Made by a program: the position numbers and the translations under genes. The notes under the pieces are model-generated. The model had not been told where the DNA came from, made no database searches, and saw nothing but the letters and a program-made list of their open reading frames with translations. From the IMG/VR virus record IMGVR_UViG_3300032249_000373, positions 1 through 64,000 of that record: a DNA stretch of 64,000 nt. One strand, written 5' to 3'. Each line of letters opens with the position of its first letter. Positions within the stretch are counted from its first letter, which is position 1. Source of the DNA: a virus. Shown in pieces: positions 1-57,883 of this stretch.

Positions 1-127
1 CTAACAATTCTTTTGCTCTTTCTGTATTGTTATATAGCCATGGATCGTCATCTGAGTTAATTGTTGTAAGGACGGAATCAAGTGCATTAATCATATCGTC
101 TAAATCTTCTTTAATATAACCTAACAT
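1..127 (-). CDS. Hypothetical early protein, 3' end cut by window edge
   Basis: The reading frame starts at ATG 127 and runs off the left edge, so only 42 residues are visible, beginning MLGYIKEDLDDMINALDSV. The visible part is acidic and probably helical, with no motif I recognise. Its start shares a base with the stop of the upstream gene (TAATG), and an AGGAGA-type ribosome site lies just upstream inside that gene, so the two are translationally coupled in one operon. Function unknown. It is probably real because of the coupling and the good ribosome site. Confidence 0.7.
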   Translation of the reverse strand, partial: MLGYIKEDLDDMINALDSVLTTINSDDDPWLYNNTERAKELL

Positions 128-291
128 TAGTTCTCCTCATCCCACCAGTATTTGACTATTGTATTTAAAGTAGTGTGAATTGCACAATCACAATCCCCAC
201 CGTTCATATTTTCCATGTATTCAAGATGTTGTTCGTTGTCCATATACATCTCATTGACTAGTTCATCAATCGTTCTCATTGTTTGGGTCAT
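127..291 (-). CDS. Hypothetical 54-residue early protein, leaderless start
   Basis: A complete small acidic protein (starts MTQTMRTIDELVNEMYMD, ends WWDEEN) with one CDC motif near residue 34. No family recognised. The ATG lies 6 nt after a TACAAT -10 element that has a TTGCAT -35 at 17-nt spacing, so transcription should begin at or next to the start codon and the message would be leaderless. The stop overlaps the start of the next gene, making a two-gene or longer operon that continues off the window. Confidence 0.72.
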   Translation of the reverse strand: MTQTMRTIDELVNEMYMDNEQHLEYMENMNGGDCDCAIHTTLNTIVKYWWDEEN

Positions 292-297
292 ATATTA

Positions 298-326
298 ATT
301 GTAGCCGAAATCGTGGAAAAATGCAA
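298..326 (-). promoter_or_regulatory. Sigma70-like promoter for a leaderless operon
   Basis: On the minus strand TTGCAT (326-321), a 17-nt spacer and TACAAT (303-298); the first codon of the downstream gene is at 291, about +1. The palindrome TTACGTAA (331-338) sits 4 nt upstream of the -35, as it also does at the promoter near 4093-4121. Confidence 0.7.
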
Positions 327-381
327 CTTCTTACGTAATCGTAAACTGTGTTTAATATCACATTGTCGAAAAATTTTCTTG

Positions 382-455
382 CGATTCCAACGGGACTTGA
401 ACCCGTAGCCTCCACCGTGACAGGGTGGCGATCTAACCAATTGATCTATGGAACC
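382..455 (-). tRNA. tRNA-Asp (anticodon GTC)
   Basis: The minus strand folds as a full cloverleaf. The acceptor GGTTCCA pairs with TGGAATC with one G-T pair. The D arm GATC/GATC, the anticodon arm CCACC-CTGTCAC-GGTGG with anticodon GTC (plus-strand 421-419), a five-base variable loop and the T arm ACGGG-TTCAAGT-CCCGT are all present. The discriminator is G73, as expected for aspartate. The 3' CCA is not encoded (GCAA follows), so it would be added after transcription. It lies just downstream of the DUF932 gene and its 3' hairpin and is probably co-transcribed. Confidence 0.95.
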
Positions 456-459
456 TTAC

Positions 460-483
460 GAGCAGTTTTAATTCTTGCTCAGG
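460..483 (-). repeat. Conserved 3' hairpin element, copy 1
   Basis: Minus-strand CCTGAGCAAG then AAAACTGCTC: stem GAGCA/TGCTC with an A-rich 3' side of the loop. It lies 12 nt after the DUF932 stop codon and just before the tRNA. Four more copies occur at 1688, 2229, 2783 and 5640. Confidence 0.75.
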
Positions 484-494
484 AATTTTTTTAG

Positions 495-1511
495 TTATGC
501 AATCTGCAAAGTGCTTTGCACAATCTTTAGCAAACGATTTTTTTCTGCGTTGATAGCAGGGTCAAAACCACTTGCTGATGCTAGGATAGATTCGTTAGAA
601 CCACCACGAGCAGAACGGTACCAGTCAAGGCGTTCTGTTAGTGCATTGAAAGCACCCCACGCATTACCAGCAATCATACCATTAAACTCGCCTGTGTAGA
701 TGTCGTTGATAACATCTACCTTGTTTTCCCATTTCTTGAAAGCACCCTTAGAATCTTTTTCTGGCTTAGGGTATGCAGCAAGAATGATGTCATTGAATTG
801 CTTAGCACTGATTTCTGTTTCAATCATAGCCTTAGCCATGAGGTCAAAAGAATCCATGTACTTATGAGCAAGACCAAGAGTCTCACGAGCAACGGCAACC
901 TTACCAGAAGCGGTCTGAGTGTGGCGAATCTTGAAAGATTGCTTGACACCATTCTTTTTCTTAGTTGTGTTTAGTGCAAGGTTAAGAGTGTTAGCGCACA
1001 CAACACGAACAGGTGTAATGCTTGCTTGAATAGCGATTGAGCCGTCATGTGATGTGTTGATAAGTAAATAAGTCTTTACCTTATCTGCAACACCGTTAGG
1101 GTCTAGGACAGTTTCACGCTCTAGTGCTAATGCACCGAATACGACACGACCACCCTTGATTGAGCCAGCCGTTTCCCAACGACCTCCACCGTCAAGAATG
1201 TTGTCACCGAATGAGAATAAATCTTCATTCTGCATAACATGATAACGCTCACCTACGACACCAAGAATGTCTGTCTGTGTGTTATCTGTTGGATTGGTAC
1301 GCAAAACATACTGGTATGCTTTGTCGCTTGTTAAGTGTGATGGGGTTTCCAAATCTTCCAGACGAACATTCCAACCGTTAAGGCTTGCAGCCTCTAACAT
1401 TTCTGATGTTGTTTTTTCTTCTGTAAATACGGTACCCAATCCATGCCAAGCAGGTTCACGAAATGATGCGAATGATGCCTTACCATTTTGTGATTCTAGT
1501 TCATGTGCCAT
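495..1511 (-). CDS. DUF932 / phage-plasmid-like protein (TIGR03299 type)
   Basis: A 338-residue protein recognised as the DUF932 family from its N-terminus (FASFREPAWHGLG, then TEEKTTSEML), the central VRVVCANTLNLAL segment with a preceding ITP, the IRHTQ motif, and the terminal GNAWGAFNALTERLDWYR. This family is common in actinobacteriophages and plasmids; its biochemical role is unsettled. The start at 1511 is chosen over longer in-frame options because AGGAG (1523-1519) is correctly spaced and the family begins there. A phage-type early promoter (box at 1559-1566, -10 at 1543-1548) lies 30 nt upstream. The tRNA-Asp follows downstream. Length is normal for the family and nothing is broken. 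Confidence 0.9.
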   Translation of the reverse strand: MAHELESQNGKASFASFREPAWHGLGTVFTEEKTTSEMLEAASLNGWNVRLEDLETPSHLTSDKAYQYVLRTNPTDNTQTDILGVVGERYHVMQNEDLFSFGDNILDGGGRWETAGSIKGGRVVFGALALERETVLDPNGVADKVKTYLLINTSHDGSIAIQASITPVRVVCANTLNLALNTTKKKNGVKQSFKIRHTQTASGKVAVARETLGLAHKYMDSFDLMAKAMIETEISAKQFNDIILAAYPKPEKDSKGAFKKWENKVDVINDIYTGEFNGMIAGNAWGAFNALTERLDWYRSARGGSNESILASASGFDPAINAEKNRLLKIVQSTLQIA

Positions 1512-1542
1512 GAGTTTTCTCCTTTTTGTTGTTGTTAATACA

Positions 1543-1566
1543 ATCATACACGAATGGGCTGACAAA
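1543..1566 (-). promoter_or_regulatory. Early promoter with TTTGTCAG box (P1)
   Basis: Minus strand: TTTGTCAG (1566-1559), exactly 10 nt, then TATGAT (1548-1543). A poor -35 (TTTGCA) precedes it at 18-nt spacing. It drives the DUF932 gene. One of eight promoters with this arrangement. Confidence 0.75.
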
Positions 1567-1687
1567 TGCAAATCGGTATAGTTAGACATAGGGCAATTCG
1601 GACATTTTTCTTGTGATCTTAAACACATGCTCGTAACTTGACATTGACTGGTCAGCCGTGTCGAAAAATTTTTCAAGGGATTGAGCG

Positions 1688-1711
1688 GAGCAGTTTTTAA
1701 ACATGCTCAGG
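1688..1711 (-). repeat. Conserved 3' hairpin element, copy 2
   Basis: Minus-strand CCTGAGCATG, then AAAAACTGCTC. Stem GAGCA/TGCTC. It lies 18 nt after the stop of the upstream gene (1730). The motif TCGAAAAATTTTT follows at 1661-1673. Confidence 0.75.
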
Positions 1712-1729
1712 TTTATTAGTAGCCCCCTA

Positions 1730-2152
1730 CTAAATATCTACTCTGTCAACACTGGATGACAGGTATGCAATTTCTTCACCATATGAAACTGAATCAAAAT
1801 CAATTTCATGAATTGCATTAATTGCTTCTTCTTCATTACGTGCATTGACTGTAACTGAATATTGAACTGTAACTTCCAATTCAAATTCTTTTGTTAATTC
1901 AAAACCGCAAATGTTTGCAATCTCTTCTGCAACACCTTCATCAAAAGTGCCATTCTCTAGCGCTTCTAAGGTCCACTCTTGCATTTCATTACGCATACGG
2001 TTGCGCTCTGCAGCCTCGCCGTATGAACGTTGCGTTACTTCTTGAATGTGCTTTTCTAATTGGTTAATACGATTTTTGTTTTCCACTAACTGTGACTCAA
2101 GAAATTCTCTTGTCATGTAGTGCTTTGCGGTTTCTGTTGTTACCTGGTCCAT
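1730..2152 (-). CDS. Hypothetical 140-residue early protein
   Basis: No family recognised. The N-terminal half (about residues 15-75) is strongly charged and looks coiled-coil. The C-terminal half alternates hydrophobic residues (ELEVTVQYSVTVNARNEEEA), like a small alpha-beta domain followed by an acidic tail. It has its own early promoter at 2185-2214, with both TTGACA and a TTTGTCAG box, and ends 18 nt before a conserved 3' hairpin, so it is a one-gene unit. The start follows AGAGGG at moderate spacing. Confidence 0.85.
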   Translation of the reverse strand: MDQVTTETAKHYMTREFLESQLVENKNRINQLEKHIQEVTQRSYGEAAERNRMRNEMQEWTLEALENGTFDEGVAEEIANICGFELTKEFELEVTVQYSVTVNARNEEEAINAIHEIDFDSVSYGEEIAYLSSSVDRVDI

Positions 2153-2184
2153 GGGGGCCCTCTTTCTGTTAGTTGTTTAATTTA

Positions 2185-2214
2185 ATTATACTGGGTACCA
2201 CTGACAAATGTCAA
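2185..2214 (-). promoter_or_regulatory. Early promoter with TTTGTCAG box and TTGACA -35 (P2)
   Basis: Minus strand: TTGACA (2214-2209), 18-nt spacer, TATAAT (2190-2185). The TTTGTCAG box (2208-2201) lies inside the spacer, 10 nt from the -10. It is the only one of the eight boxed promoters that also has a perfect -35. Confidence 0.82.
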
Positions 2215-2228
2215 GATCCCCTTACGGG

Positions 2229-2252
2229 GAGTAGTTTATACACATACTCAGG
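2229..2252 (-). repeat. Conserved 3' hairpin element, copy 3 (compensated stem)
   Basis: Minus-strand CCTGAGTATG, then ATAAACTACTC. The stem is GAGTA/TACTC: both sides changed relative to the other copies while pairing is kept. It lies 58 nt after the stop at 2311 and is followed by a second small hairpin, CCCC-GTAA-GGGG. Confidence 0.75.
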
Positions 2253-2310
2253 TGTCTTGTCTCAGGCATACCTACGCATCATGGCATAGGGCTTAGCAGA
2301 AACAAATTAT

Positions 2311-2733
2311 TTAGAGATAACGAGATACCGCTTGATAGGTAGAAGTAGAAACTACTTCCTCGTCTGTCATCTTTAGAATACGAATAGCGTTAGAGATTTC
2401 CTCTTTCTGCTCACGATAGTTATAGACAGAAAATGTCTCAAAGTCTTTCTCAGGCTCTTTAGGCAAGTCCTTGTCTGAAACTGTTAGGTCAAAGTCAATG
2501 TTAAGACTATTGTTCCATGAGCGATAGTTAGTGCGGAAGTTTTCTGCCTTACTGATGTTAGCAAGAGCATAGTCCTGCACTTCCTTCTGCCATGCCTTGC
2601 GTAGCAATTCGTATCGTGCTTCGTTGGCTTCTTGTGATGTGTAGTCAAGTTCTAGTTTATCTAGTGACTTTTGTAGTGCCTCAATTACTCGTTGAGTAGG
2701 TATCTTTACTGAGATTGCTTTTTGTCTTGCCAT
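2311..2733 (-). CDS. Hypothetical 140-residue early protein
   Basis: No family recognised. The N-terminus is basic (MARQKAISVKIPTQRVIE), followed by a long helical, charged stretch (about residues 15-75) and an acidic central part (SDKDLPKEPEKDFETF). The last 40 residues (EEISNAIRILKMTDEEVVS) look like a short helical domain. A small adaptor or nucleic-acid-associated protein would fit, but nothing proves it. No clear boxed promoter is visible directly upstream, so it may be read from the promoter at 3045-3068 through the gene at 2839-3003. Confidence 0.82.
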   Translation of the reverse strand: MARQKAISVKIPTQRVIEALQKSLDKLELDYTSQEANEARYELLRKAWQKEVQDYALANISKAENFRTNYRSWNNSLNIDFDLTVSDKDLPKEPEKDFETFSVYNYREQKEEISNAIRILKMTDEEVVSTSTYQAVSRYL

Positions 2734-2782
2734 CTTTTATTTTCTCTTTTCTTTGGTGGTTTAATTGTTAGGGGGTTGTGTT

Positions 2783-2808
2783 GAGCAGTTTTAGTAGTCA
2801 TGCTCAGG
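2783..2808 (-). repeat. Conserved 3' hairpin element, copy 4
   Basis: Minus-strand CCTGAGCATG, then TAAAACTGCTC. Stem GAGCA/TGCTC with a loop two bases longer than in the other copies. It lies about 30 nt after the stop at 2839. Confidence 0.75.
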
Positions 2809-2838
2809 ACTAAGTTACTATCTAACTGGCTTGTTAGA

Positions 2839-3003
2839 TTACTTAGCCGTCCAAGTTGTGTATCGGTGTGAGCCATTGACATCTAACTTTACACGAACAT
2901 TACCATTTGGTTGTGGGTTAATCTCTACGATTGTTCCTGTGACCTTTGACTTCTGTGTTGTGTATGTGTCGCCTACCTTGTATGTTGCTGTTGCTACTGA
3001 CAT
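2839..3003 (-). CDS. Small beta-rich early protein, 54 residues
   Basis: The start at 3003 is preceded by AAAGGAGAAAC, an excellent ribosome site, and is preferred over a longer in-frame extension that would overlap the promoter. The sequence (ATYKVGDTYTTQKSKVTGTI) followed by alternating hydrophobic residues suggests a single small SH3- or KOW-like beta barrel, similar in style to the 76-residue protein at 5223-5453, but no named family is recognised. A boxed early promoter lies at 3045-3068 and a CRP-type palindrome at 3115-3130 lies further upstream. Confidence 0.82.
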   Translation of the reverse strand: MSVATATYKVGDTYTTQKSKVTGTIVEINPQPNGNVRVKLDVNGSHRYTTWTAK

Positions 3004-3044
3004 TGTGTTTCTCCTTTTGTTTAGTGTGTTTTGCTTATGTATTA

Positions 3045-3068
3045 AGTGTAACATTTCCTACTGACATT
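3045..3068 (-). promoter_or_regulatory. Early promoter with TGTCAG box (P3)
   Basis: Minus strand: AATGTCAG (3068-3061), 10 nt, TACACT (3050-3045). The box varies in its first two bases but the spacing is exact. Confidence 0.68.
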
Positions 3069-3114
3069 ATCAACATTTTTCCTAGATTTCTCACTATTTG
3101 AGACGCTTAGGGTA

Positions 3115-3130
3115 TGTGATTTATGTCACA
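3115..3130. promoter_or_regulatory. CRP/GlxR-type palindrome, perfect
   Basis: TGTGA-TTTATG-TCACA, a perfect match to TGTGA-N6-TCACA. Its centre is about 84 bp upstream of the predicted start of transcription from P3. The upstream flank TGAGACGCT (3099-3107) is also found before the site at 5568. Confidence 0.65.
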
Positions 3131-3146
3131 TTGGACAGATTGAGGG

Positions 3147-3212
3147 TTATTGTCCACCTGCTATGATTAGTATGATTAGTAACCCTATTACTGTTGCTAT
3201 TACCATTTCCAT
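3147..3212 (-). CDS. Predicted 21-residue membrane peptide
   Basis: Minus strand: GAGGAAAA ribosome site, then ATG and the peptide MEMVIATVIGLLIILIIAGG plus a final Gln and TAA. Almost the whole peptide is one hydrophobic helix with no charge after residue 2. It starts 6 nt after the stop of the GP88 gene, so the two would be co-transcribed. Two similar peptides occur in neighbouring operons (4439-4504, 6738-6797). No family can be assigned at this length; a chance frame is possible but the ribosome site and recurrence argue for a real gene. Confidence 0.5.
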   Translation of the reverse strand: MEMVIATVIGLLIILIIAGGQ

Positions 3213-3218
3213 TTTTCC

Positions 3219-3941
3219 TCATTTCTTAGTTGCAGAAAAAATTATGTCACTCTTAGAGTATACACACAATGAGCAAGAAACGCAAGCCGAGCCCTTTGTG
3301 CTTATGAGTGGTATCTGCTTATTGTTTTCAGGACACTTAGCCCCAGGTCTATTGGTCAATGCCTTTAAGTCTGCTTGTCCTATTAGAAAGTTTTTAGCAA
3401 GGTATGCTAATTTAATTCCATGATCTGTTTTTAATTCCACACCTGTATCTTTATTCTCGCTATCTGTGGAATAGTATAGTGAAAGATTTTCAATACCCTT
3501 CAACATTAGGGCAGCACTCTTAACTCTCGTGTATACCCAGAATTGAATATCAGGATTATTAAGGATGACATGCTTCCATGCGAATGTATAAGTATCGTTA
3601 AAGAAATCGCCGTCCCAATGAATACGGAATAGCATAGGGGCTTCACGCTTTACGCACTCAGCCTTGAAGTCTTTTATCATATCTTCAAGCAATGCTTCAA
3701 TGGTATCGTGATCAGCGTCCTTAATTAATTCCCAATTGTGCAATAAGTTTTTCTTTACTGTTGGGAATACCTTTTCCAATTTGCCTGCATAGCAAACACT
3801 CTCGCAGACAGACGTTGCACCAGGACATGAATAGTTTTTTCCTGCTGGTAATCCGAAAGTGTTAGCGATACTTGCTTGTTTTCCATTTGGTGTAACTGCA
3901 TTTGCTACTTTCCTATCTTTGCTTCTTAGTAGTTTAGTCAT
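3219..3941 (-). CDS. GP88-like protein (Gene product 88 family)
   Basis: A 240-residue protein that I recognise as the actinophage gene product 88 family. The diagnostic segments are KVANAVTPNGKQASIANTFGLPAG, here abbreviated to its parts KVANAVTPNG and ANTFGLPAG, then CPGATSVCESVCYAGK, RIHWDGDFFN, and a C-terminal cysteine cluster (CPENNK, then CVSCSLC). The N-terminal CxxxxxCxxxC and the C-terminal cysteines suggest metal or Fe-S binding; no activity is established. The start at 3941 follows GAGAG; longer in-frame options overlap the promoter P4. The gene follows a 46-residue leaderless gene by 5 nt and also has its own promoter at 3967-3990. Confidence 0.88.
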   Translation of the reverse strand: MTKLLRSKDRKVANAVTPNGKQASIANTFGLPAGKNYSCPGATSVCESVCYAGKLEKVFPTVKKNLLHNWELIKDADHDTIEALLEDMIKDFKAECVKREAPMLFRIHWDGDFFNDTYTFAWKHVILNNPDIQFWVYTRVKSAALMLKGIENLSLYYSTDSENKDTGVELKTDHGIKLAYLAKNFLIGQADLKALTNRPGAKCPENNKQIPLISTKGSACVSCSLCVYSKSDIIFSATKK

Positions 3942-3946
3942 GGTGG

Positions 3947-4087
3947 CTACTCTCTTTCTTTCTTTAATTCTAACATAAGGGACTGACATTTTTTTCTATC
4001 GTATTTTTTCTTATTGGGTACGGCAGAGGCAGCGTTAGACCTACGTAATTCCATAAGCCTACGTAATTCCTCTTTGGTTTTCTTCAT
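3947..4087 (-). CDS. Small basic protein, 46 residues, leaderless
   Basis: MKKTKEELRRLMELRRSNAA followed by a Lys/Arg-rich helix ending LKKERE. It is highly charged and probably helical, so nucleic-acid binding is conceivable, but no family is recognised. Its ATG lies 5 nt after a TAAGAT -10 with a TTGACA -35 at 17-nt spacing, so it should be leaderless. The coding sequence contains a 13-bp direct repeat (complement of CCTACGTAATTCC, near 4043 and 4061) that encodes two ELRR units. Its 3' half contains the promoter P4 and the ribosome site of the GP88 gene, which begins 5 nt after its stop. Confidence 0.65.
   Translation of the reverse strand: MKKTKEELRRLMELRRSNAASAVPNKKKYDRKKCQSLMLELKKERE
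3967..3990 (-). promoter_or_regulatory. Early promoter with TGTCAG box (P4), inside a gene
   Basis: Minus strand: AATGTCAG (3990-3983), 10 nt, TAGAAT (3972-3967). It lies within the 46-residue gene and would give the GP88 gene a separate message. Confidence 0.65.
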
Positions 4088-4092
4088 ACTTA

Positions 4093-4121
4093 ATCTTAAC
4101 AGAATCCTGGGAAAATGTCAA
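4093..4121 (-). promoter_or_regulatory. Sigma70-like promoter for leaderless gene
   Basis: Minus strand: TTGACA (4121-4116), 17 nt, TAAGAT (4098-4093), with the ATG at 4087. TTACGTAA (4125-4132) sits 3 nt upstream of the -35, matching the arrangement at 298-338. Confidence 0.75.
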
Positions 4122-4159
4122 ATCTTACGTAAACACGACACGCCCGACTGCGTTCGAAA

Positions 4160-4192
4160 ATTTTGTGCGGGGAAGCACACAAAATCTTTTTT
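4160..4192. terminator. Intrinsic terminator-like hairpin
   Basis: ATTTTGTG (4160-4167) pairs with CACAAAAT (4178-4185) around a 10-nt loop, flanked by T-runs in both directions. It lies 10 nt after the stop of the minus-strand operon ending at 4195 and could act in either direction. Confidence 0.65.
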
Positions 4193-4194
4193 AG

Positions 4195-4437
4195 TTAATC
4201 AGCATCCTCAGTAAAAACATACAACGGAATTAAATCAGTGTAAGAATACTGAGTAACTTCCTTTTCACCAAATTCGTTTTCGGTTTGGATGTCATAGTTA
4301 TCTCCTGTTGAATCACTTTCAATAAAAATAACTTCAACAATGTCTTCACCGATCTTGATTAAATCACCAAGCATAACCTGGTCTGGTGTTAAGTTATCAG
4401 CGTGTAATAATTCCATAGAATTCATTGTAACAGTCAT
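4195..4437 (-). CDS. Hypothetical 80-residue early protein
   Basis: The start at 4437 is chosen because it sits 1 nt after the stop of the upstream membrane peptide, giving coupling; a longer in-frame start would overlap that gene. The N-terminus (MTVTMNSMELLHADNLTPDQ) leads into GDLIKIGEDIVEVIFI, a pattern like a small beta barrel, then an acidic loop and YSYTDLIPLYVF. This type of sequence is common among small actinophage proteins of unknown role. It is the last gene of the 5453-to-4195 operon and is followed by a terminator-like hairpin. Confidence 0.8.
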   Translation of the reverse strand: MTVTMNSMELLHADNLTPDQVMLGDLIKIGEDIVEVIFIESDSTGDNYDIQTENEFGEKEVTQYSYTDLIPLYVFTEDAD

Positions 4438-4438
4438 T

Positions 4439-4504
4439 TTAACGGGTCCCCGCAAGTGCTATAAAAAACAAAAGAAAACCTGCAACGATAAAGAATTCCA
4501 CCAT
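4439..4504 (-). CDS. Predicted 21-residue membrane peptide
   Basis: MVEFFIVAGFLLFFIALAG plus Thr-Arg: one hydrophobic helix with a basic C-terminal residue. The ATG overlaps the upstream stop (TAATG) and its stop is 1 nt from the next start, so it is embedded in a coupled operon. The coupling makes it more credible than its size alone would. No homology can be claimed. Confidence 0.55.
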   Translation of the reverse strand: MVEFFIVAGFLLFFIALAGTR

Positions 4505-4824
4505 TATTCAAGCCCCAATCCTAATTCAAATCCTAGGTCCTCGTTATAGTCTTCAACGTTTTCAGGCAACCATGGATGCAAGTGGTGTTGCTCAATGATA
4601 GCCCACACTGGAGCGCAGGTTTCATTCTTGTAGTAAATACCGTCTGGCATCTCAATAGTTTCATCCCACAATTCCTGGTGTGCAAAATCAATTGCAGCAA
4701 TGCATACTGGTACCATGCTTAGTGGTACTGGTGGATAGTGATTACCCTGCAAGTGATAACCAATAGCCTGTTCAAGGCTTATGTCAATGTTTTCTGCTAG
4801 ATCCATCGCTGTGTTGTATCCCAT
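4504..4824 (-). CDS. Hypothetical 106-residue early protein
   Basis: No named family recognised. The N-terminal half (MGYNTAMDLAENIDISLEQA) is helical, the middle (YPPVPLSMVPVCIAAIDFAH) carries several prolines and a cysteine, and the C-terminus is acidic (ENVEDYNEDLGFELGLGLE). Aromatic and histidine residues are frequent (EQHHLHPWLPE). Its start overlaps the stop of the gene upstream and its stop overlaps the start of the membrane peptide, so all are made from one message driven by the promoter at 5497-5520. Confidence 0.85.
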   Translation of the reverse strand: MGYNTAMDLAENIDISLEQAIGYHLQGNHYPPVPLSMVPVCIAAIDFAHQELWDETIEMPDGIYYKNETCAPVWAIIEQHHLHPWLPENVEDYNEDLGFELGLGLE

Positions 4825-5042
4825 TATCGTGTTACCACCATTCCTGTTTTGTAAAAAGTTTTTGTGTGCATCTTGCCTGAAGGTTCAGAAAGATTAACTG
4901 TTGCGTATTCGTTAGCAAATCCGTGGTCAATAAACTTTTGATAAACTTCCACGGCAGATAAAGCATCTGAGTAGCGACCAACCCATTTAGGTGTAGGGGC
5001 TGAGTCATAGGTAACTGTTACTGAGTATAGGTATTCGTTCAT
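4824..5042 (-). CDS. Hypothetical 72-residue early protein
   Basis: MNEYLYSVTVTYDSAPTPKW followed by a helix (YSDALSAVEVYQKFIDHG) and a final beta-rich segment (ATVNLSEPSG, then MVVTR). The arrangement suggests a small alpha-beta fold. No family recognised. Both ends overlap neighbours in TAATG junctions. Fourth from the end of its operon. Confidence 0.82.
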   Translation of the reverse strand: MNEYLYSVTVTYDSAPTPKWVGRYSDALSAVEVYQKFIDHGFANEYATVNLSEPSGKMHTKTFYKTGMVVTR

Positions 5043-5218
5043 TATGCATTCTCCTTATAAAATTCGTTCATGATACTTTCAGCATACCATTCGGTGTATT
5101 CAGTTTCAAGCGACACGCCCTTAGCGCACTCACAAAAATCTGTATCGTATTCACCATGATTATTGCCCCAAAATAGGACACCCTCATCATAGCAATCCAT
5201 GCAATCCCAAGTGTTCAT
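5042..5218 (-). CDS. Small cysteine-rich protein, 58 residues
   Basis: MNTWDCMDCYDEGVLFWG then FCECAKG at about residues 29-35: two CxxC/CxC pairs that could hold one zinc ion, with a DnaJ-like CxxCxxxG first pair. A similar CxxCxxxG plus CKC protein is encoded at 8164-8262. Zinc binding is inferred from spacing only. It is too short for the usual gene-length cut-off, but it fills the gap between 5223 and 5042 exactly, with a TAATG junction to the next gene. Confidence 0.72.
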   Translation of the reverse strand: MNTWDCMDCYDEGVLFWGNNHGEYDTDFCECAKGVSLETEYTEWYAESIMNEFYKENA

Positions 5219-5222
5219 TTAT

Positions 5223-5453
5223 TTACCCCTTTACCTTTACTGCGACTACCGCATAAAAATCATTCCACCGCTTTGGTGAAACTGAGTATCCTGTATAAGT
5301 AGGCTTAACAAGAATACGATACGCTTGGTATTCATTTCCATACCATGCATCATGAGGCGTTGCCTCTTTAATTTCTCCCTCAATGCCACGAGACTTTGAG
5401 CGATACTGTTTTCCTACGAGTAGGCTATCTATTGTATAGGTTAGTGCTGACAT
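5223..5453 (-). CDS. Small beta-barrel-like protein, 76 residues
   Basis: First gene of the 5453-to-4195 operon. Sequence pattern LLVGKQYRSKSRGIEGEIKE then AYRILVKPTY and NDFYAVVAVKVKG indicates a compact beta-rich fold, SH3- or KOW-like, resembling the 54-residue protein at 2839-3003. Function unknown. AAAGGCGG lies a suitable distance before the start. The boxed promoter P5 is 45 nt upstream, with a CRP-type site and a DnaA box behind it. Confidence 0.82.
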   Translation of the reverse strand: MSALTYTIDSLLVGKQYRSKSRGIEGEIKEATPHDAWYGNEYQAYRILVKPTYTGYSVSPKRWNDFYAVVAVKVKG

Positions 5454-5496
5454 TATGTCCGCCTTTCTTTTTCTTTAATTAACTTATTACTATGTA

Positions 5497-5520
5497 ATCC
5501 TATCATGGCAGGCTGACAAA
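5497..5520 (-). promoter_or_regulatory. Early promoter with TTTGTCAG box (P5)
   Basis: Minus strand: TTTGTCAG (5520-5513), 10 nt, TAGGAT (5502-5497). No convincing -35 hexamer. It drives the six-gene operon 5453-4195. Confidence 0.75.
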
Positions 5521-5567
5521 TGTATAGTTACTAGCGAGTAATCTTAAATACTGAGACGCTCAACCTA

Positions 5568-5583
5568 TGTGATAAATCTCACA
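5568..5583. promoter_or_regulatory. CRP/GlxR-type palindrome, perfect
   Basis: TGTGA-TAAATC-TCACA. Centre about 85 bp upstream of the predicted P5 start. TGAGACGCT at 5552-5560 precedes it, as at the 3115 site. Confidence 0.68.
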
Positions 5584-5592
5584 AATCTAGCC

Positions 5593-5601
5593 TGTGGATA
5601 A
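5593..5601 (-). other. DnaA box (TTATCCACA), perfect
   Basis: Plus-strand TGTGGATAA, followed 5 nt later by a degenerate copy (TGTGGAGGA). It lies 10 bp beyond the CRP-type site at 5568. Confidence 0.6.
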
Positions 5602-5639
5602 CCCTGTGGAGGACACGCCCGAACGGGTCGAAAAAATTT

Positions 5640-5663
5640 AAGCAGTTTTAGATCATGCTTAGG
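5640..5663 (-). repeat. Conserved 3' hairpin element, copy 5 (compensated stem)
   Basis: Minus-strand CCTAAGCATG, then AAAACTGCTT. The stem is AAGCA/TGCTT: the outer pair changed on both sides relative to copies 1, 2 and 4. It lies 23 nt after the stop at 5686, followed by TCGAAAAAATTT (5628-5639). Confidence 0.75.
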
Positions 5664-5685
5664 ATTTTGCTTAGCCTCTGCAGTG

Positions 5686-5871
5686 CTAAGACTTTGTTAA
5701 AATTCCATCAACGCAAGCATCATAGAATTTATTTTCATCAAATCTAGGATTATCAGAAGCAAACCATTCGCTAAATTCAAAAACTAATTGGTCAAAATCA
5801 TTTGAGTCAATGTCATCAACAAATTTATTTAGAATTTTTGCAGTTTCTACATAGTCTTTACGTGTCATCAT
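5686..5871 (-). CDS. Hypothetical acidic 61-residue early protein
   Basis: MMTRKDYVETAKILNKFVDD, then an acidic helical body (FDQLVFEFSEWFASDNPRFD) and DACVDGILTKS. The pattern 'ETAKILN...FVFEFSEWFASDNPRFDE' is common in small actinophage proteins of unknown function. The start directly follows the upstream stop (TAA then ATG), and a second ATG immediately follows, so the true start could be 5871 or 5868. Last gene of the operon driven from 6479-6502; followed by the conserved 3' hairpin copy 5. Confidence 0.82.
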   Translation of the reverse strand: MMTRKDYVETAKILNKFVDDIDSNDFDQLVFEFSEWFASDNPRFDENKFYDACVDGILTKS

Positions 5872-6024
5872 TTAGTAAGTTTCCACTTTCTCTACATCTG
5901 CGACATTATCTAAACGCCATGTGTTGTTTACAATTTCAATAACTTTTTCAAATGAGTGGGCCTCATACGCAGGGTATGAGACCTCACCATTTACATTACG
6001 CACTGAAAGTTTTACGCCATTCAT
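5872..6024 (-). CDS. Hypothetical 50-residue early protein
   Basis: Starts MNGVKLSVRNVNGEVSYPAY and ends VADVEKVETY: a small alpha-beta protein with a central helix (FEKVIEIVNNTW). No family recognised. It fits exactly between its neighbours: its ATG overlaps the upstream stop (TAATG) and its stop abuts the next ATG. Such tight packing in a coupled operon supports it. Confidence 0.75.
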   Translation of the reverse strand: MNGVKLSVRNVNGEVSYPAYEAHSFEKVIEIVNNTWRLDNVADVEKVETY

Positions 6025-6230
6025 TAGTCGGCCACCTTTAGAATTGCATAGGACCCGCCTGCGTTAATTTCATCTAGTGCAGATTTAATTCGTGGTGCAA
6101 GTAAATCCTTGAGCATTGACTCAAGCATGATTACACGCATTGACTCCTCTAATGCTAACAGTTGTGCACCGATTGGATGAGTTTCGTCTACTTCTGTCAC
6201 GAAGTGTAGTGAGTGAGGTACTTTTACCAT
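6024..6230 (-). CDS. Hypothetical 68-residue early protein
   Basis: MVKVPHSLHFVTEVDETHPI followed by a long amphipathic helical region (LLALEESMRVIMLESMLKDL) and a short C-terminal strand (SYAILKVAD). Could be a small coiled-coil oligomer. Family not recognised. AGGAAAAC is a serviceable ribosome site. Second gene of the operon starting at 6446. Confidence 0.8.
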   Translation of the reverse strand: MVKVPHSLHFVTEVDETHPIGAQLLALEESMRVIMLESMLKDLLAPRIKSALDEINAGGSYAILKVAD

Positions 6231-6248
6231 TTTTAGTTTTCCTATTCT

Positions 6249-6446
6249 TTAGTTTGAGTTAGTGAGTGTACGAGTGCCACGAATTGTGCCACTAATTCCA
6301 AGAGAGTCGCAAGCGACTTTAACAGATACGCCAACAGGTAATTGTGTTGGGTATTGTGATACGAATTGAGCAACCTGACCTCGTGATGAGAAGTTGATTT
6401 TTTTGGTAGAACCTGAAAAGGTTTCTAGTGTAACAGTGTAAGTCAT
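6249..6446 (-). CDS. Hypothetical 65-residue early protein
   Basis: MTYTVTLETFSGSTKKINFS with SRGQVAQFVSQYPTQLPVG and a C-terminal GTIRGTRTLTNSN: short strand-helix-strand pattern. Function unknown. AAGGAAGT precedes the ATG. First gene of its operon, with the boxed promoter P6 33 nt upstream and a CRP-type palindrome behind that. Confidence 0.8.
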   Translation of the reverse strand: MTYTVTLETFSGSTKKINFSSRGQVAQFVSQYPTQLPVGVSVKVACDSLGISGTIRGTRTLTNSN

Positions 6447-6478
6447 TGAGTGACTTCCTTTCTTTAAGTGATAAGACT

Positions 6479-6502
6479 ATCCTATCACGGGGGGCTGACA
6501 AA
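6479..6502 (-). promoter_or_regulatory. Early promoter with TTTGTCAG box (P6)
   Basis: Minus strand: TTTGTCAG (6502-6495), 10 nt, TAGGAT (6484-6479). It drives the operon 6446-5686. Confidence 0.75.
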
Positions 6503-6511
6503 TTGGGGCAC

Positions 6512-6564
6512 TTATTCGCTAGGCTCACTGTGATACTGGTCACATTTATTTGCTAGGCTCATTG
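6512..6564. repeat. 19-bp direct repeats flanking a CRP-type site
   Basis: TTATTCGCTAGGCTCACTG (6512-6530) and TTATTTGCTAGGCTCATTG (6546-6564) differ at two positions and flank the palindrome at 6529-6544. Confidence 0.75.
6529..6544. promoter_or_regulatory. CRP/GlxR-type palindrome, perfect
   Basis: TGTGA-TACTGG-TCACA, centred about 64 bp upstream of the predicted P6 start and overlapping the end of the first 19-bp repeat. Confidence 0.68.
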
Positions 6565-6597
6565 CCTTGTCTGTCCTTATTTAATTGTTATACTAGA

Positions 6598-6626
6598 AGT
6601 ATAGCAAAGAAATGTCAAAAAGTCAA
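6598..6626 (-). promoter_or_regulatory. Second, sigma70-like promoter upstream of the 6446 operon
   Basis: Minus strand: TTGACT (6626-6621), 17 nt, TATACT (6603-6598). It would give a long leader through the 19-bp repeats before the first gene at 6446. A 16-codon frame (starts MSLANKCDQY) lies in that leader but I do not call it a gene. Confidence 0.55.
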
Positions 6627-6647
6627 ATCCTAACACGGCGTGTCGCA

Positions 6648-6663
6648 TGTGAGTTACACCACA
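6648..6663. promoter_or_regulatory. CRP/GlxR-type palindrome, one mismatch
   Basis: TGTGA-GTTACA-CCACA: a single mismatch to the consensus found perfectly at five other places in this region. Confidence 0.45.
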
Positions 6664-6670
6664 TCTATCC

Positions 6671-6691
6671 TGTGGATAAGCCTGTGGATAA
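6671..6691 (-). other. Two tandem DnaA boxes (TTATCCACA), perfect
   Basis: Plus-strand TGTGGATAA at 6671-6679 and 6683-6691, same orientation, 12-bp period. TTTTTTCGAAAATTTTT follows directly. Confidence 0.65.
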
Positions 6692-6704
6692 CTTTTTTCG
6701 AAAA

Positions 6705-6730
6705 TTTTTCAGGGGATCAATCCTGAAAAA
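6705..6730. terminator. Intrinsic terminator-like hairpin, bidirectional
   Basis: TTTTTCAGG (6705-6713) pairs perfectly with CCTGAAAAA (6722-6730) around an 8-nt loop. It lies 7 nt past the stop of the last gene of the operon 7546-6738. Confidence 0.7.
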
Positions 6731-6737
6731 CTTTTTA

Positions 6738-6797
6738 CTAACTATGAATTGCAATAACAAAAGCAAAACAAGTAATTGCGATTAGAATAACTAACAT
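6738..6797 (-). CDS. Predicted 19-residue membrane peptide
   Basis: MLVILIAITCFAFVIAIHS: a single hydrophobic helix. It has a GAGGAAAA ribosome site, its ATG overlaps the upstream stop (TAATG) and a terminator follows, so it occupies the last position of a coupled operon. Third peptide of this kind in the region. No homology can be claimed at this length. Confidence 0.55.
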   Translation of the reverse strand: MLVILIAITCFAFVIAIHS

Positions 6798-6886
6798 TAG
6801 TTTTCCTCAATTTCATTTAGTAAATCCCAAAGTATTGGCTCTAACTCTAACGCAACTGCATCAAGTTTTTCTTGAAGTGTTTTCAT
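6797..6886 (-). CDS. Hypothetical 29-residue peptide
   Basis: MKTLQEKLDAVALELEPILW then DLLNEIEEN: one amphipathic acidic helix. It lies exactly between coupled neighbours: its ATG follows the upstream stop TAA directly, and its own stop overlaps the next ATG. Function unknown; its position in the coupled operon is the main support. Confidence 0.55.
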   Translation of the reverse strand: MKTLQEKLDAVALELEPILWDLLNEIEEN

Positions 6887-7030
6887 TTATTCCTCAATCT
6901 GTCTTTGATAGTAGTCAATTACATGAAAGTCTAATTGTCTCTCAAGTGGCATAGCCTTTAGCCATGAATAGGCAGACTCAAAATCATCTGCCTCTACATC
7001 TACATACAACTCAAAATTAAATACTGGCAT
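6887..7030 (-). CDS. Hypothetical 47-residue early protein
   Basis: MPVFNFELYVDVEADDFESA, then a helix (YSWLKAMPLERQLDFHVID) and an acidic end. The strand-helix arrangement with E/D-rich N-terminus resembles the C-terminal half of the 140-residue protein at 1730-2152 (ELEVTVQYSVTVNARNEEEA) in style only. Excellent AGGAGG ribosome site. TAATG junction with the gene upstream. Confidence 0.72.
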   Translation of the reverse strand: MPVFNFELYVDVEADDFESAYSWLKAMPLERQLDFHVIDYYQRQIEE

Positions 7031-7194
7031 TATTTAACCTCCTTGTATAAAAAGTCCCAAGCCTTACGGCATAACACGATAGATTTGCAGTTATCGCAAC
7101 AGATAACTCCATGAGGGTTAAGGTCTAGGTCATAGACATCTATTGTGGTAGTAACCGCACCACACACGGATTTAATTGGTACATAGGTACTCAT
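7030..7194 (-). CDS. Small cysteine-rich protein, 54 residues
   Basis: Contains CGAVTTT, then VICCDNCKSIVLCRKAWDF at about residues 31-47, a CCxxC...C cluster that could bind a metal ion. The C-terminus (DFLYKEVK) is basic. It follows directly on another CxxC protein in the same operon. Zinc binding is an inference from cysteine spacing; no family recognised. ATGA junction upstream and TAATG junction downstream. Confidence 0.72.
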   Translation of the reverse strand: MSTYVPIKSVCGAVTTTIDVYDLDLNPHGVICCDNCKSIVLCRKAWDFLYKEVK

Positions 7195-7373
7195 CTTGTA
7201 AGTCCTTCCTTTCCATAAGTGTTAATAAAATCAGGGAGAGCCATAACGCCCTTGTAGTCTTTACATCTAGGGCAAAATCTATTCCACCCGTCAAATAGTG
7301 TTATGCAGAAAGCGCAGATGTTATCCATAGCGCATAAGCCTTGCTCATCTATAAATTGCATAGTGTCGTTCAT
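7191..7373 (-). CDS. Zinc-ribbon-like small protein, 60 residues
   Basis: ICAFCITLFDGWNRFCPRCK at about residues 18-37: two CxxC pairs 12 residues apart, the classic spacing of a zinc ribbon. It ends YGKEGLTR. The start at 7373 is supported by GGAAGGTG and by the ATGA-type overlap with the upstream gene; a longer in-frame start lies inside that gene. Second gene of the operon 7546-6738. Confidence 0.82.
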   Translation of the reverse strand: MNDTMQFIDEQGLCAMDNICAFCITLFDGWNRFCPRCKDYKGVMALPDFINTYGKEGLTR

Positions 7374-7546
7374 GCTGACACCTTCCAATCTGTCCAAGCA
7401 GGGAATTGTTCTGGGTCACTATCATAGTAGTAACGCTCAATGTTGCTATCGCAAATCATGCATAGTGTGAATTGCTCATCTCCAATTTCTGAGATAGCAG
7501 AAACAAGAGGCTCGTGCCACTTGCATAGTGTGTTTAGTGTAGTCAT
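7370..7546 (-). CDS. Small cysteine-pair protein, 58 residues
   Basis: MTTLNTLCKWHEPLVSAISE, then LCMICDSNIERYYYD: C-x3-H early and CxxC in the middle, compatible with one zinc site. The aromatic C-terminus reads FPAWTDWKVSA. First gene of a six-gene operon; AAGGTAGGTC is an acceptable ribosome site and the boxed promoter P7 is 56 nt upstream. Function unknown. Confidence 0.75.
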   Translation of the reverse strand: MTTLNTLCKWHEPLVSAISEIGDEQFTLCMICDSNIERYYYDSDPEQFPAWTDWKVSA

Positions 7547-7601
7547 TTTGACCTACCTTTCTTTAAGGGATTTCTGTACCCTTGTTTTTCTTTATACTGT
7601 A

Positions 7602-7625
7602 AGTATAGCAGGGGGGTCTGACAAA
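7602..7625 (-). promoter_or_regulatory. Early promoter with TTTGTCAG box (P7)
   Basis: Minus strand: TTTGTCAG (7625-7618), 10 nt including a C-run, TATACT (7607-7602). It drives the operon 7546-6738. Confidence 0.78.
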
Positions 7626-7657
7626 TTGGAGGGGACAAAAGGTATCAAAACGGACAT

Positions 7658-7673
7658 TGTGAGATTAGTCACA
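7658..7673. promoter_or_regulatory. CRP/GlxR-type palindrome, perfect
   Basis: TGTGA-GATTAG-TCACA, centred about 70 bp upstream of the predicted P7 start. Confidence 0.7.
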
Positions 7674-7693
7674 TGTGTTTCATGTCACATAGG

Positions 7694-7727
7694 TTATCCA
7701 CACATGAATGGTCAGACCTGTGGATAA
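7694..7727. other. Two opposed DnaA boxes (TTATCCACA), perfect
   Basis: TTATCCACA at 7694-7702 (plus) and TGTGGATAA at 7719-7727 (minus orientation), 16 bp apart, midway between the divergent promoters P7 and P8. Confidence 0.68.
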
Positions 7728-7744
7728 CTTTTTTCGACATCCCC

Positions 7745-7760
7745 TGTGACGGAAATCACA
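7745..7760. promoter_or_regulatory. CRP/GlxR-type palindrome, perfect
   Basis: TGTGA-CGGAAA-TCACA, centred about 74 bp upstream of the predicted P8 start on the plus strand. Confidence 0.7.
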
Positions 7761-7796
7761 AAAATACTTTACCGACACGCCCGAAAAACAGGCTAA

Positions 7797-7820
7797 TTTG
7801 TCAGTGGTAGGTGCTAGAAT
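7797..7820 (+). promoter_or_regulatory. Early promoter with TTTGTCAG box (P8), plus strand
   Basis: TTTGTCAG (7797-7804), 10 nt, TAGAAT (7815-7820). The same architecture as the minus-strand early promoters, divergent from P7; it drives the three small genes at 7857-8262. Confidence 0.78.
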
Positions 7821-7856
7821 ACTATGTATAAAGATTAACAAAGAAAGGTGTTCCCA

Positions 7857-8003
7857 ATGAATACACTAGAAAGACTAAGAGCAGAGCAACAGGCTCGCTA
7901 CGCTAAAGAGCGTGAGGCTAACAAGGCTAAGATTGAGGCTATGTTTGCCAATAACTCTCGCCCACTAAACAATGCCCACCTATTAGGAAAGGAGGAAAAC
8001 TAA
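7857..8003 (+). CDS. Small charged helical protein, 48 residues
   Basis: MNTLERLRAEQQARYAKERE followed by NKAKIEAMF and a GKEEN end; strongly charged and helical, likely coiled-coil. AGAAAGG lies upstream of the ATG. First of three coupled plus-strand genes under the boxed promoter P8. Function unknown. Confidence 0.75.
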   Translation: MNTLERLRAEQQARYAKEREANKAKIEAMFANNSRPLNNAHLLGKEEN

Positions 8004-8167
8004 TGAAAACCAATTTTGAGATTACACAAGAGATTAACACTCTTGCTACTAAGCACTATGGTGATGTATCACTGTCATGGGTTTGGGGTTGTGCACAAGC
8101 ACTACTAACCGCACAACAGTTAGAGTTAATTCTAAACATGCTACTAGAGAAAGAGGCTAGTCAATGA
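8003..8167 (+). CDS. Hypothetical 54-residue protein
   Basis: MKTNFEITQEINTLATKHYG, then DVSLSWVWGCAQALLTAQQL and a helical end. GGAGGAAA provides a strong ribosome site and the ATG overlaps the upstream stop (TAATG). The body is probably two helices with a short aromatic turn. No family recognised. Confidence 0.75.
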   Translation: MKTNFEITQEINTLATKHYGDVSLSWVWGCAQALLTAQQLELILNMLLEKEASQ

Positions 8168-8262
8168 GCGCAATGTACGCACACACTTGTGAAACTTGTG
8201 GGGATACAGGTATCATCATTTTTGATAAAAACGAGACCCGCATAGACCCTTGCAAATGTTAG
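8164..8262 (+). CDS. Tiny CxxCxxxG protein, 32 residues
   Basis: MSAMYAHTCETCGDTGIIIF ... DPCKC. The CxxCxDTG motif with a terminal CxC is a half-zinc-finger of the DnaJ type and matches the style of the 58-residue protein at 5042-5218. ATGA junction with the gene upstream. Real because of the coupling, the conserved-looking motif and the boxed promoter; role unknown. Confidence 0.65.
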   Translation: MSAMYAHTCETCGDTGIIIFDKNETRIDPCKC

Positions 8263-57206: not shown

Positions 57207-57395
57207 ATGACATGTAAAAGATGCGAAGGAAAGATGTTTGTTGATAGAATACATTCAAACATAGATCACCTAGAAACATATTGTGTAAAGTGTGGAAATA
57301 GAAAGTTTTATCATCCACCTAGCGAATCTGCGGAGGGAAAATGGCTACTGCAAAAGGAAAAATTCAGAGCGAAGCATATAATAGCGAACCTGTAA
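57207..57395 (+). CDS. Zinc-ribbon protein, 62 residues
   Basis: MTCKRCEGKMFVDR ... ETYCVKCGNRKFYHPPSES: two CxxC pairs 20 residues apart, a one-domain zinc ribbon, then a basic helix (WLLQKEKFRAKHIIANL). Such proteins often assist transcription or replication, but none can be named. The start at 57207 is chosen because the earlier in-frame Met would lie in the fibre gene. Overlaps the next gene by 55 nt. Confidence 0.78.
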   Translation: MTCKRCEGKMFVDRIHSNIDHLETYCVKCGNRKFYHPPSESAEGKWLLQKEKFRAKHIIANL

Positions 57396-57883
57396 TTCCT
57401 GGCGGTAAAAAGATTTGGTTCCTTAATGGAGACTTAGTAAGACTTCATCACAGTTCTAGATCAACAGGTATGGTAACTGTTTATAATATTAACAAAGATA
57501 GATTAGAGACTTGTCTACGTTCTGACTTTAGAAAAAATAGAAAAAGAGCATATACAATTGCAGAGACTGCTAAGTTAGTTAATCGTCATAGAAAATATAT
57601 GCCAAGATTAATAAAACGAGGAGTCATTCCTCCACCAGTTGGATCTAGCATTGATGGTAAAACAGGTTTTCAAATAAGAGCATACTACTCAGAAGACCAC
57701 GTTAGAGAGATTTGTGCTATACTTTCAACTATACATATTGGACAGCCAAGAAAAGATAAATTAATAACAAACAACATGACTCCTACAAGCCAAGAGTTGA
57801 CAAGGCGAATGGGAGACGGTATACTTACATATACGAAGACAGAAGATGGACGATTTATTCCAGTGTGGAGTGAATCTATTTAA
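57341..57883 (+). CDS. Helix-turn-helix DNA-binding protein, 180 residues
   Basis: Residues about 70-98 (YTIAETAKLVNRHRKYMPRL ... IKRGVIPPP) form a MerR/excisionase-type winged helix-turn-helix, with a wing (KTGFQIRAYYSEDHV) and a following helix. The N-terminal 60 residues (IWFLNGDLVRLHHSSRSTGM) look like a small beta domain. It may regulate the replication or late genes; its place at the junction between virion and replication modules fits that. GCGGAGGG ribosome site. Confidence 0.78.
   Translation: MATAKGKIQSEAYNSEPVIPGGKKIWFLNGDLVRLHHSSRSTGMVTVYNINKDRLETCLRSDFRKNRKRAYTIAETAKLVNRHRKYMPRLIKRGVIPPPVGSSIDGKTGFQIRAYYSEDHVREICAILSTIHIGQPRKDKLITNNMTPTSQELTRRMGDGILTYTKTEDGRFIPVWSESI

Follow-up and report, generated by a model that had tools for sequence, protein, structure and literature searches.

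A TGTCRG box in place of the −35 element characterizes a class of putative early promoters in phages that appear to infect aquatic actinobacteria

The middle promoters of phage T4 carry the MotA box wwwTGCTTtA, which is located 12 ± 1 nucleotides (nt) from the −10 element (PMC2988021). At these promoters the short box replaces the −35 element near −30, the −10 element is good, many such promoters exist per phage, and about half of them have an additional TGn (PMC2988021). The Pho box consists of two 11-nt direct repeats (PMC4415409), and the regulator WhiA recognizes GACAC irrespective of its orientation (PMC3781837). Here we analyzed a DNA stretch of 64,000 nt, i.e. positions 1–64,000 of the virus record IMGVR_UViG_3300032249_000373 (105,870 bp in total), which is called “the window” throughout. 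It contains a series of promoters that share a box near −30, replacing the −35 element, as well as a −10 element and frequently TGn, in likeness to T4. In contrast to T4, the box is WWTGTCRG at a distance of exactly 10 nt, and CRP sites are located upstream.

Eight box promoters had been proposed from the letters of the window alone (the sequence-only reading). All eight boxes are present, six of them with the sequence TTTGTCAG and two with the sequence AATGTCAG, the gap between box and −10 element is exactly 10 nt at every site, and each box precedes a gene start, being located 26–56 nt upstream of an ATG. Seven promoters are on the minus strand. The promoter at 1543–1566 (TTTGTCAG box 1566–1559, −10 TATGAT 1548–1543) belongs to the DUF932 gene (495–1511) and has TTGCAT at −35 (3/6 matches, spacer 17). 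The promoter at 2185–2208 (TTTGTCAG box 2208–2201, −10 TATAAT 2190–2185, TTGACA with a spacer of 18) precedes gene 1730–2152, while that at 3045–3068 (AATGTCAG box 3068–3061, extended −10 TACACT 3050–3045) precedes gene 2839–3003. The GP88 gene (3219–3941) is preceded by the promoter at 3967–3990 (AATGTCAG box 3990–3983, extended −10 TAGAAT 3972–3967), which has no −35 element. Three further minus-strand promoters have a TTTGTCAG box and an extended −10, i.e. 5497–5520 (box 5520–5513, TAGGAT 5502–5497; gene 5223–5453), 6479–6502 (box 6502–6495, TAGGAT 6484–6479; gene 6249–6446), and 7602–7625 (box 7625–7618, TATACT 7607–7602; gene 7370–7546). The eighth promoter, at 7797–7820 on the plus strand (TTTGTCAG box 7797–7804, extended −10 TAGAAT 7815–7820), precedes the divergent gene 7857–8003.

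The −10 elements had been described as TAnnAT, which holds for six promoters; TACACT at 3050–3045 and TATACT at 7607–7602 end with CT, and TAnnnT covers all eight. The claim that only one promoter has a good −35 element is correct for a perfect TTGACA (2185–2208), but the promoter at 3045–3068 has TTGATA (5/6 matches, spacer 17). In six of the eight cases TGn precedes the −10 element, a feature that the earlier description had not mentioned.

Nine matches to the pattern WWTGTCAG-N10-TAnnnT were found in the window, compared to an expectation of 0.41, and this number was reached by none of 100 shuffled sequences. Taken together with the gap-10 peak in relatives (see below), these values exclude a chance origin of the box/−10 pairs. 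The ninth match (5431–5454, minus strand) is located inside gene 5223–5453, is formed by its start codon (ATG TCA G), and was judged a start-codon coincidence. The strict TTTGTCAG form is present six times in the whole record, always at 1.5–7.8 kb, while the reversed control was found zero times.

The relatives included 79 viral loci that bear GP88 and 22 large records of 97–119 kb; several of the loci analyzed are fragments. Site counts were thinned by similarity (75–80%), and the remaining sites are still related by descent. Of the 256 distinct TTTGTCAG boxes in the GP88 loci, 233 are followed by TAnnnT after a gap of 10 nt, versus one after 9 nt and none after 11 nt. For all fetched loci, 461 non-redundant TGTCAG boxes were found at gap 10, versus 1–8 at gaps 7–9 and 11–13. 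A scan of single changes revealed almost no variation in TGTC and in the final G, whereas the fifth place is A or G (TGTCGG, 76 sites at gap 10); a weak enrichment at this gap was also seen for TGTCTG and TGTCAC. The logo of 203 sites reads A(A/T)(A/T)TGTCAG(T/A)SS ... TGnTAtAaTT. All 22 large records carry copies of the motif (4–16, most of them in a single cluster and in the same orientation; reversed pattern 0–2). A motif search of the whole genome and of related phages had been suggested as a check, and it found the motif enriched upstream of genes and clustered in the early region. Upstream regions of GP88 orthologues, which were picked by gene and not by motif, have kept box and −10 element in 66 of 73 cases. 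A Shine–Dalgarno motif and a start codon follow within 46 nt after 81% of the box promoters, versus 33% at random positions.

The −10 element is extended in 465 of 712 box promoters, and TTG at a spacer of 17 or 18 is present in 213 of 712 (30%, versus a background of about 1.5% per position). A trade-off between the −35 element and the extended −10 was not significant (p = 0.23). The rigid spacing, the extended −10, the absence of a −35 TTG in about two thirds of the promoters, the enrichment upstream of genes, and the deep conservation provide good support for a special promoter class in which the box replaces the −35 element.

To what extent does this class resemble those already described? 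As in T4 middle promoters, the box takes the place of the −35 element (no TTG in about two thirds) and the −10 element is kept, together with TGn. The sequences differ: TGCTTT has no peak at gaps 8–12 (8–15 sites at each), while TGTCAG peaks at gap 10 only. T4 uses the phage-encoded proteins MotA and AsiA, whereas the present phages have upstream CRP sites, and neither protein was recognized among the Pfam-scanned proteins, a scan that did not include a family search aimed at MotA or AsiA. Of the proposed resemblance to MotA promoters, the special class with a box instead of the −35 element and its logic are thus retained, while MotA sequence and register are not.

The register is identical to that of E. 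coli MG1655 Pho promoters, in which a TGTCA-Y half-site is followed by N10 and the hexamer, i.e. TGTCAC-GGCCGAGACT-TATAGT at phoA, TGTCAT-AAATCTGACG-CATAAT at phoB, and TGTCAC-CTGTTTGTCC-TATTTT at pstS. However, the phage sites prefer TGTCAG over TGTCAT/C, and a Pho box with two repeats was rejected, as the phage sites lack the distal one: their logo (203 sites) shows no TGTCA at the −11 positions. The Streptomyces PHO box, GTTCACC, is unlike the phage box. WhiA/WhiB promoters of Streptomyces share with the phage promoters an asymmetric monomer site with TGTC/GACA; WhiB-type proteins contact region 4 of sigma-A, and WhiB is also encoded by the box phages. A WhiA site was nevertheless rejected, as its core differs: the other strand of the box reads CYGACA(A/T), so that GACA is followed by A/T, the orientation is fixed, and no GACAC is formed. 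Mycobacteriophage L5 of cluster A has stoperators, asymmetric sites with the sequence GGTGGMTGTCAAG that contain TGTCA and are present in many copies per phage. An L5-type stoperator was also rejected, as TGTCAA is not enriched (14 at gap 10 versus 12 in the background) and the logo has no GGTGG flank. The best reading of these comparisons is that the mode of action of the box promoters would resemble that of T4 MotA and E. coli PhoB promoters, while on the tested features they belong to neither group.

The sequence-only reading had missed five perfect CRP/GlxR-type sites (TGTGAN6TCACA), which are located upstream of five of the eight boxes. Only 0.15 are expected in the window, and all five are found at 3.1–7.8 kb. 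The center of the site at 3115–3130 is 77.5 bp from the last base of the −10 element of promoter 3045–3068. The respective distances are 78.5 bp for the site at 5568–5583 (promoter 5497–5520), 57.5 bp for 6529–6544 (promoter 6479–6502), 63.5 bp for 7658–7673 (promoter 7602–7625), which is adjoined by an imperfect second site, and 67.5 bp for 7745–7760 (promoter 7797–7820). Sites with one mismatch are present at 1612–1627, 76.5 bp from the −10 element of promoter 1543–1566, and at 347–362, 56.5 bp from the last base of a TTGCAT-N17-TACAAT promoter on the minus strand (−10 at 303–298).

In the relatives, 155 non-redundant pairs of CRP site and box were found, with site-to-box gaps that peak at 16, 26, 36, 46, and 57 nt. 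The period is 10.2–10.5 bp (Rayleigh R = 0.79, n = 139), i.e. the CRP sites are helically phased to the core promoter and lie on one face of the DNA. Consensus and phasing are those of class I CRP promoters, which have TGTGAN6TCACA upstream at 10-bp steps; the difference is that here the sites are located on phage early promoters. The phase in the phages is about 3 bp further upstream than in E. coli lac. A box-less form, ACGGCGTGTCG-N-CTTGACTTTT-N-TGnTAnnnT (class A), has the same CRP distances as the box promoters. One example, TTGACT-N17-TATACT with TGn at 6598–6626 (minus strand), is in tandem to the box promoter at 6479–6502 and has a one-mismatch CRP site at 6648–6663, whose center is 57.5 bp from its −10 element. 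Because the distances at box-less promoters are equal, CRP appears to act on RNA polymerase. A cyclic nucleotide (cNMP)-binding domain was found in none of the 22 phages, while the same search was positive in the controls, i.e. Corynebacterium glutamicum and nine further genomes. As none of the 22 encodes such a protein, host CRP is the likely binder of these sites.

We propose that the box promoters are sigma-A-dependent extended −10 promoters, at which a sigma-contacting and probably host-encoded activator stands in for the −35 element; we assign a probability of roughly 0.5 to this reading. The core promoter would combine the extended −10 (TGnTAnnnT) with the box AWWTGTCRG, fixed at approximately −30 to −23. 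This box would be the contact site of the putative activator, at the position where sigma region 4 would meet a −35 element, and docking of the activator onto RNA polymerase would make a consensus −35 element dispensable. We infer such a docked protein, contacting sigma or RNA polymerase, from the fixed gap, the absence of TTG at −35 in about two thirds of the promoters, and the extended −10 in about two thirds. It would most likely be a host protein, because transcription of the genes behind the boxes probably begins at a time when phage proteins have yet to be made. They are presumably early genes, a label that is based on their position and gene type. Host CRP/GlxR would bind to the same face of the DNA, at least one helical turn upstream of the box, and help to recruit RNA polymerase in a class I manner.

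Several observations weigh against this proposal. About one third of the box promoters do have a TTG at −35. In a second phage group (L063, L356, L420, and others), which has a G+C content of about 45% and no CRP sites, the box is joined to TTGACA, and in the L063-type arrangement the two form an operator-like dyad, TGACA-NN-TGTCA. CRP sites are not commoner at promoters without a −35 element; a compensation of the missing −35 by CRP was not seen, and the association is slightly in the opposite direction (odds ratio 1.6). Lastly, the early module has been exchanged between box lineages and could have carried a phage-specific system along.

The −35 elements and the dyad would suit an operator between −35 and −10, which the sequence-only reading had offered as an alternative and through which a phage or host repressor would shut the promoters, e.g. 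to turn off early genes at a later stage of the infection. The position of the box falls within the footprint of RNA polymerase, all 22 box phages share a conserved helix-turn-helix (HTH) protein (window 57341–57883), and the idea gains weight in the L063-type group. Yet a steric operator would not require exactly 10 nt to the −10 element, repressed strong promoters should have retained the −35 element that is absent in about two thirds, and the left half of the dyad is not conserved in the main group. The HTH protein, which is HTH_17/MerR-like and may be a phage regulator, is also present in Streptomyces and Rhodococcus relatives, and those examined have no box, which weakens it as a dedicated box reader. 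An operator is the main rival, but an unlikely one, and we favor activation over repression by about three to one.

If the box is bound by an activator, it could also be encoded by the phage, i.e. a MotA-like protein that is produced early from class A promoters or brought in with the virion. Class A TTGACT promoters do occur beside box promoters, including the tandem arrangement described above, and 21 of the 22 box phages encode a WhiB-like protein, a family with members that contact sigma-A region 4 (PMC10245118). In the present record, however, the WhiB gene is located at 84.8 kb, away from the early region, the tested part of the proteins included no DNA-binding protein specific to box phages, and multi-box clusters are also present in phage loci without detectable homology to the present early module. 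We regard a phage activator as rather improbable. Among the 22 phage records, neither an OmpR-type DNA-binding domain (0/22, phage genomes only) nor sigma region 4 was found over the cut-off, so that a phage OmpR-type regulator and a phage sigma factor were rejected alongside a phage CRP.

The distribution of the box also bears on its reader. In the capsid tree, Streptomyces phages are placed between two sets of box phages, and a single box clade is rejected (AU test, p = 0.005). The box was not found in the cultured Streptomyces and Rhodococcus phage relatives examined; LukeCage has DUF932 and GP88 homologues with 48–49% identity and no box. The capsid tree alone is not decisive, because early genes have moved between box lineages: within window 1–8200, early genes are 70–82% identical between phages with about 40% identical capsid proteins, e.g. 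gene 2311 is 82% identical in a relative (G017) whose capsid protein is 42% identical. Because the box is found in several lineages and in loci without detectable homology to the module, LukeCage has none, and the tested regulator families do not explain it, the comparative data lean, if only somewhat, to a host rather than a phage factor as the box reader. The candidate phage regulators that had been suggested for gel shifts are accordingly less attractive, as the recognizable families tested are absent from the phages.

In a further reading, the box would be a core promoter element read directly by host RNA polymerase (sigma-A, RbpA, or CarD). This would account for the rigid coupling to the −10 element and the presence in different phages, but the box is missing from the class A promoters of these phages, and we know of no RNA polymerase contact that specifically reads bases −28 to −23; we consider it very unlikely. 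A broader formulation, which we put forward tentatively and give slightly less than even chances, is that TGTCRG is a −25 box of aquatic actinobacteria, read by a host activator or by RNA polymerase itself, which several phage lineages have adopted together with host CRP for the control of the genes they express first.

The left 8 kb of the window contain short, mostly leftward genes, including those for DUF932 and GP88, and a tRNA-Asp(gtc) gene is located at 381–455, at the end of the early region and on the same strand. The remaining window encodes ribonucleotide reductase, portal, capsid, and replication proteins, in the gene order of Streptomyces phages of the Stanwilliamsviridae, with a capsid identity of about 44% to these. 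No integrase was noticed when the open reading frame lists were inspected by eye. WhiB is a key indicator of actinophages (PMC10202952), and the WhiB-family gene of the record, which has counterparts in the group (21 of 22 records carry one), points to an actinobacterium as the host. The best explanation is an aquatic actinophage of about 106 kb, and the promoter type appears to be common to hundreds of lake and other aquatic phages that apparently infect actinobacteria. Two contigs of group phages (L209, L210) are parts of metagenome-assembled genomes labeled as cyanobacterium and Phycisphaerae, probably as binning errors. The box is absent from the lake actinophage DSL-LC01 (OQ999401.1), which has an ATPase related to the L063 one. 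In this phage, the region 22–39 kb harbors another uniform, operator-like class of about 25 early promoters that share GATTCTAAAG(A/T)TGTTATAATAGAATC, with the arms GATTCTA/TAGAATC around the −10 element.

Further elements are found near the box promoters. Five DnaA boxes (TTATCCACA type) are located between the early promoters (window 5593–7735), where their role could be that of an origin or of regulation; in the relatives, the regions upstream of box promoters show an about six-fold enrichment of DnaA boxes, with no clear phasing. The relatives also have a second element, AAAATGTCCGATTTG, at 20–21 and 30–31 nt upstream of the box, i.e. at distances about 10 bp apart, and CGACACGCCCG and GAGCGTCTCA recur at fixed places 24 and 40 nt upstream, respectively.

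Actinobacteria rank among the most abundant bacteria of lakes, and, to our knowledge, the start of gene expression in their phages has not been described so far. If our proposal is true, early transcription of a large phage group uses global regulators of the host, i.e. CRP and a further factor, in contrast to T4, whose early promoters are strong and constitutive. The several hundred promoters represent a ready set for finding the factor that binds the box. The results suggest that these phages plug their first genes into the regulators of the host cell, and the phage take-over would then be tied to the carbon and nutrient state of the host.

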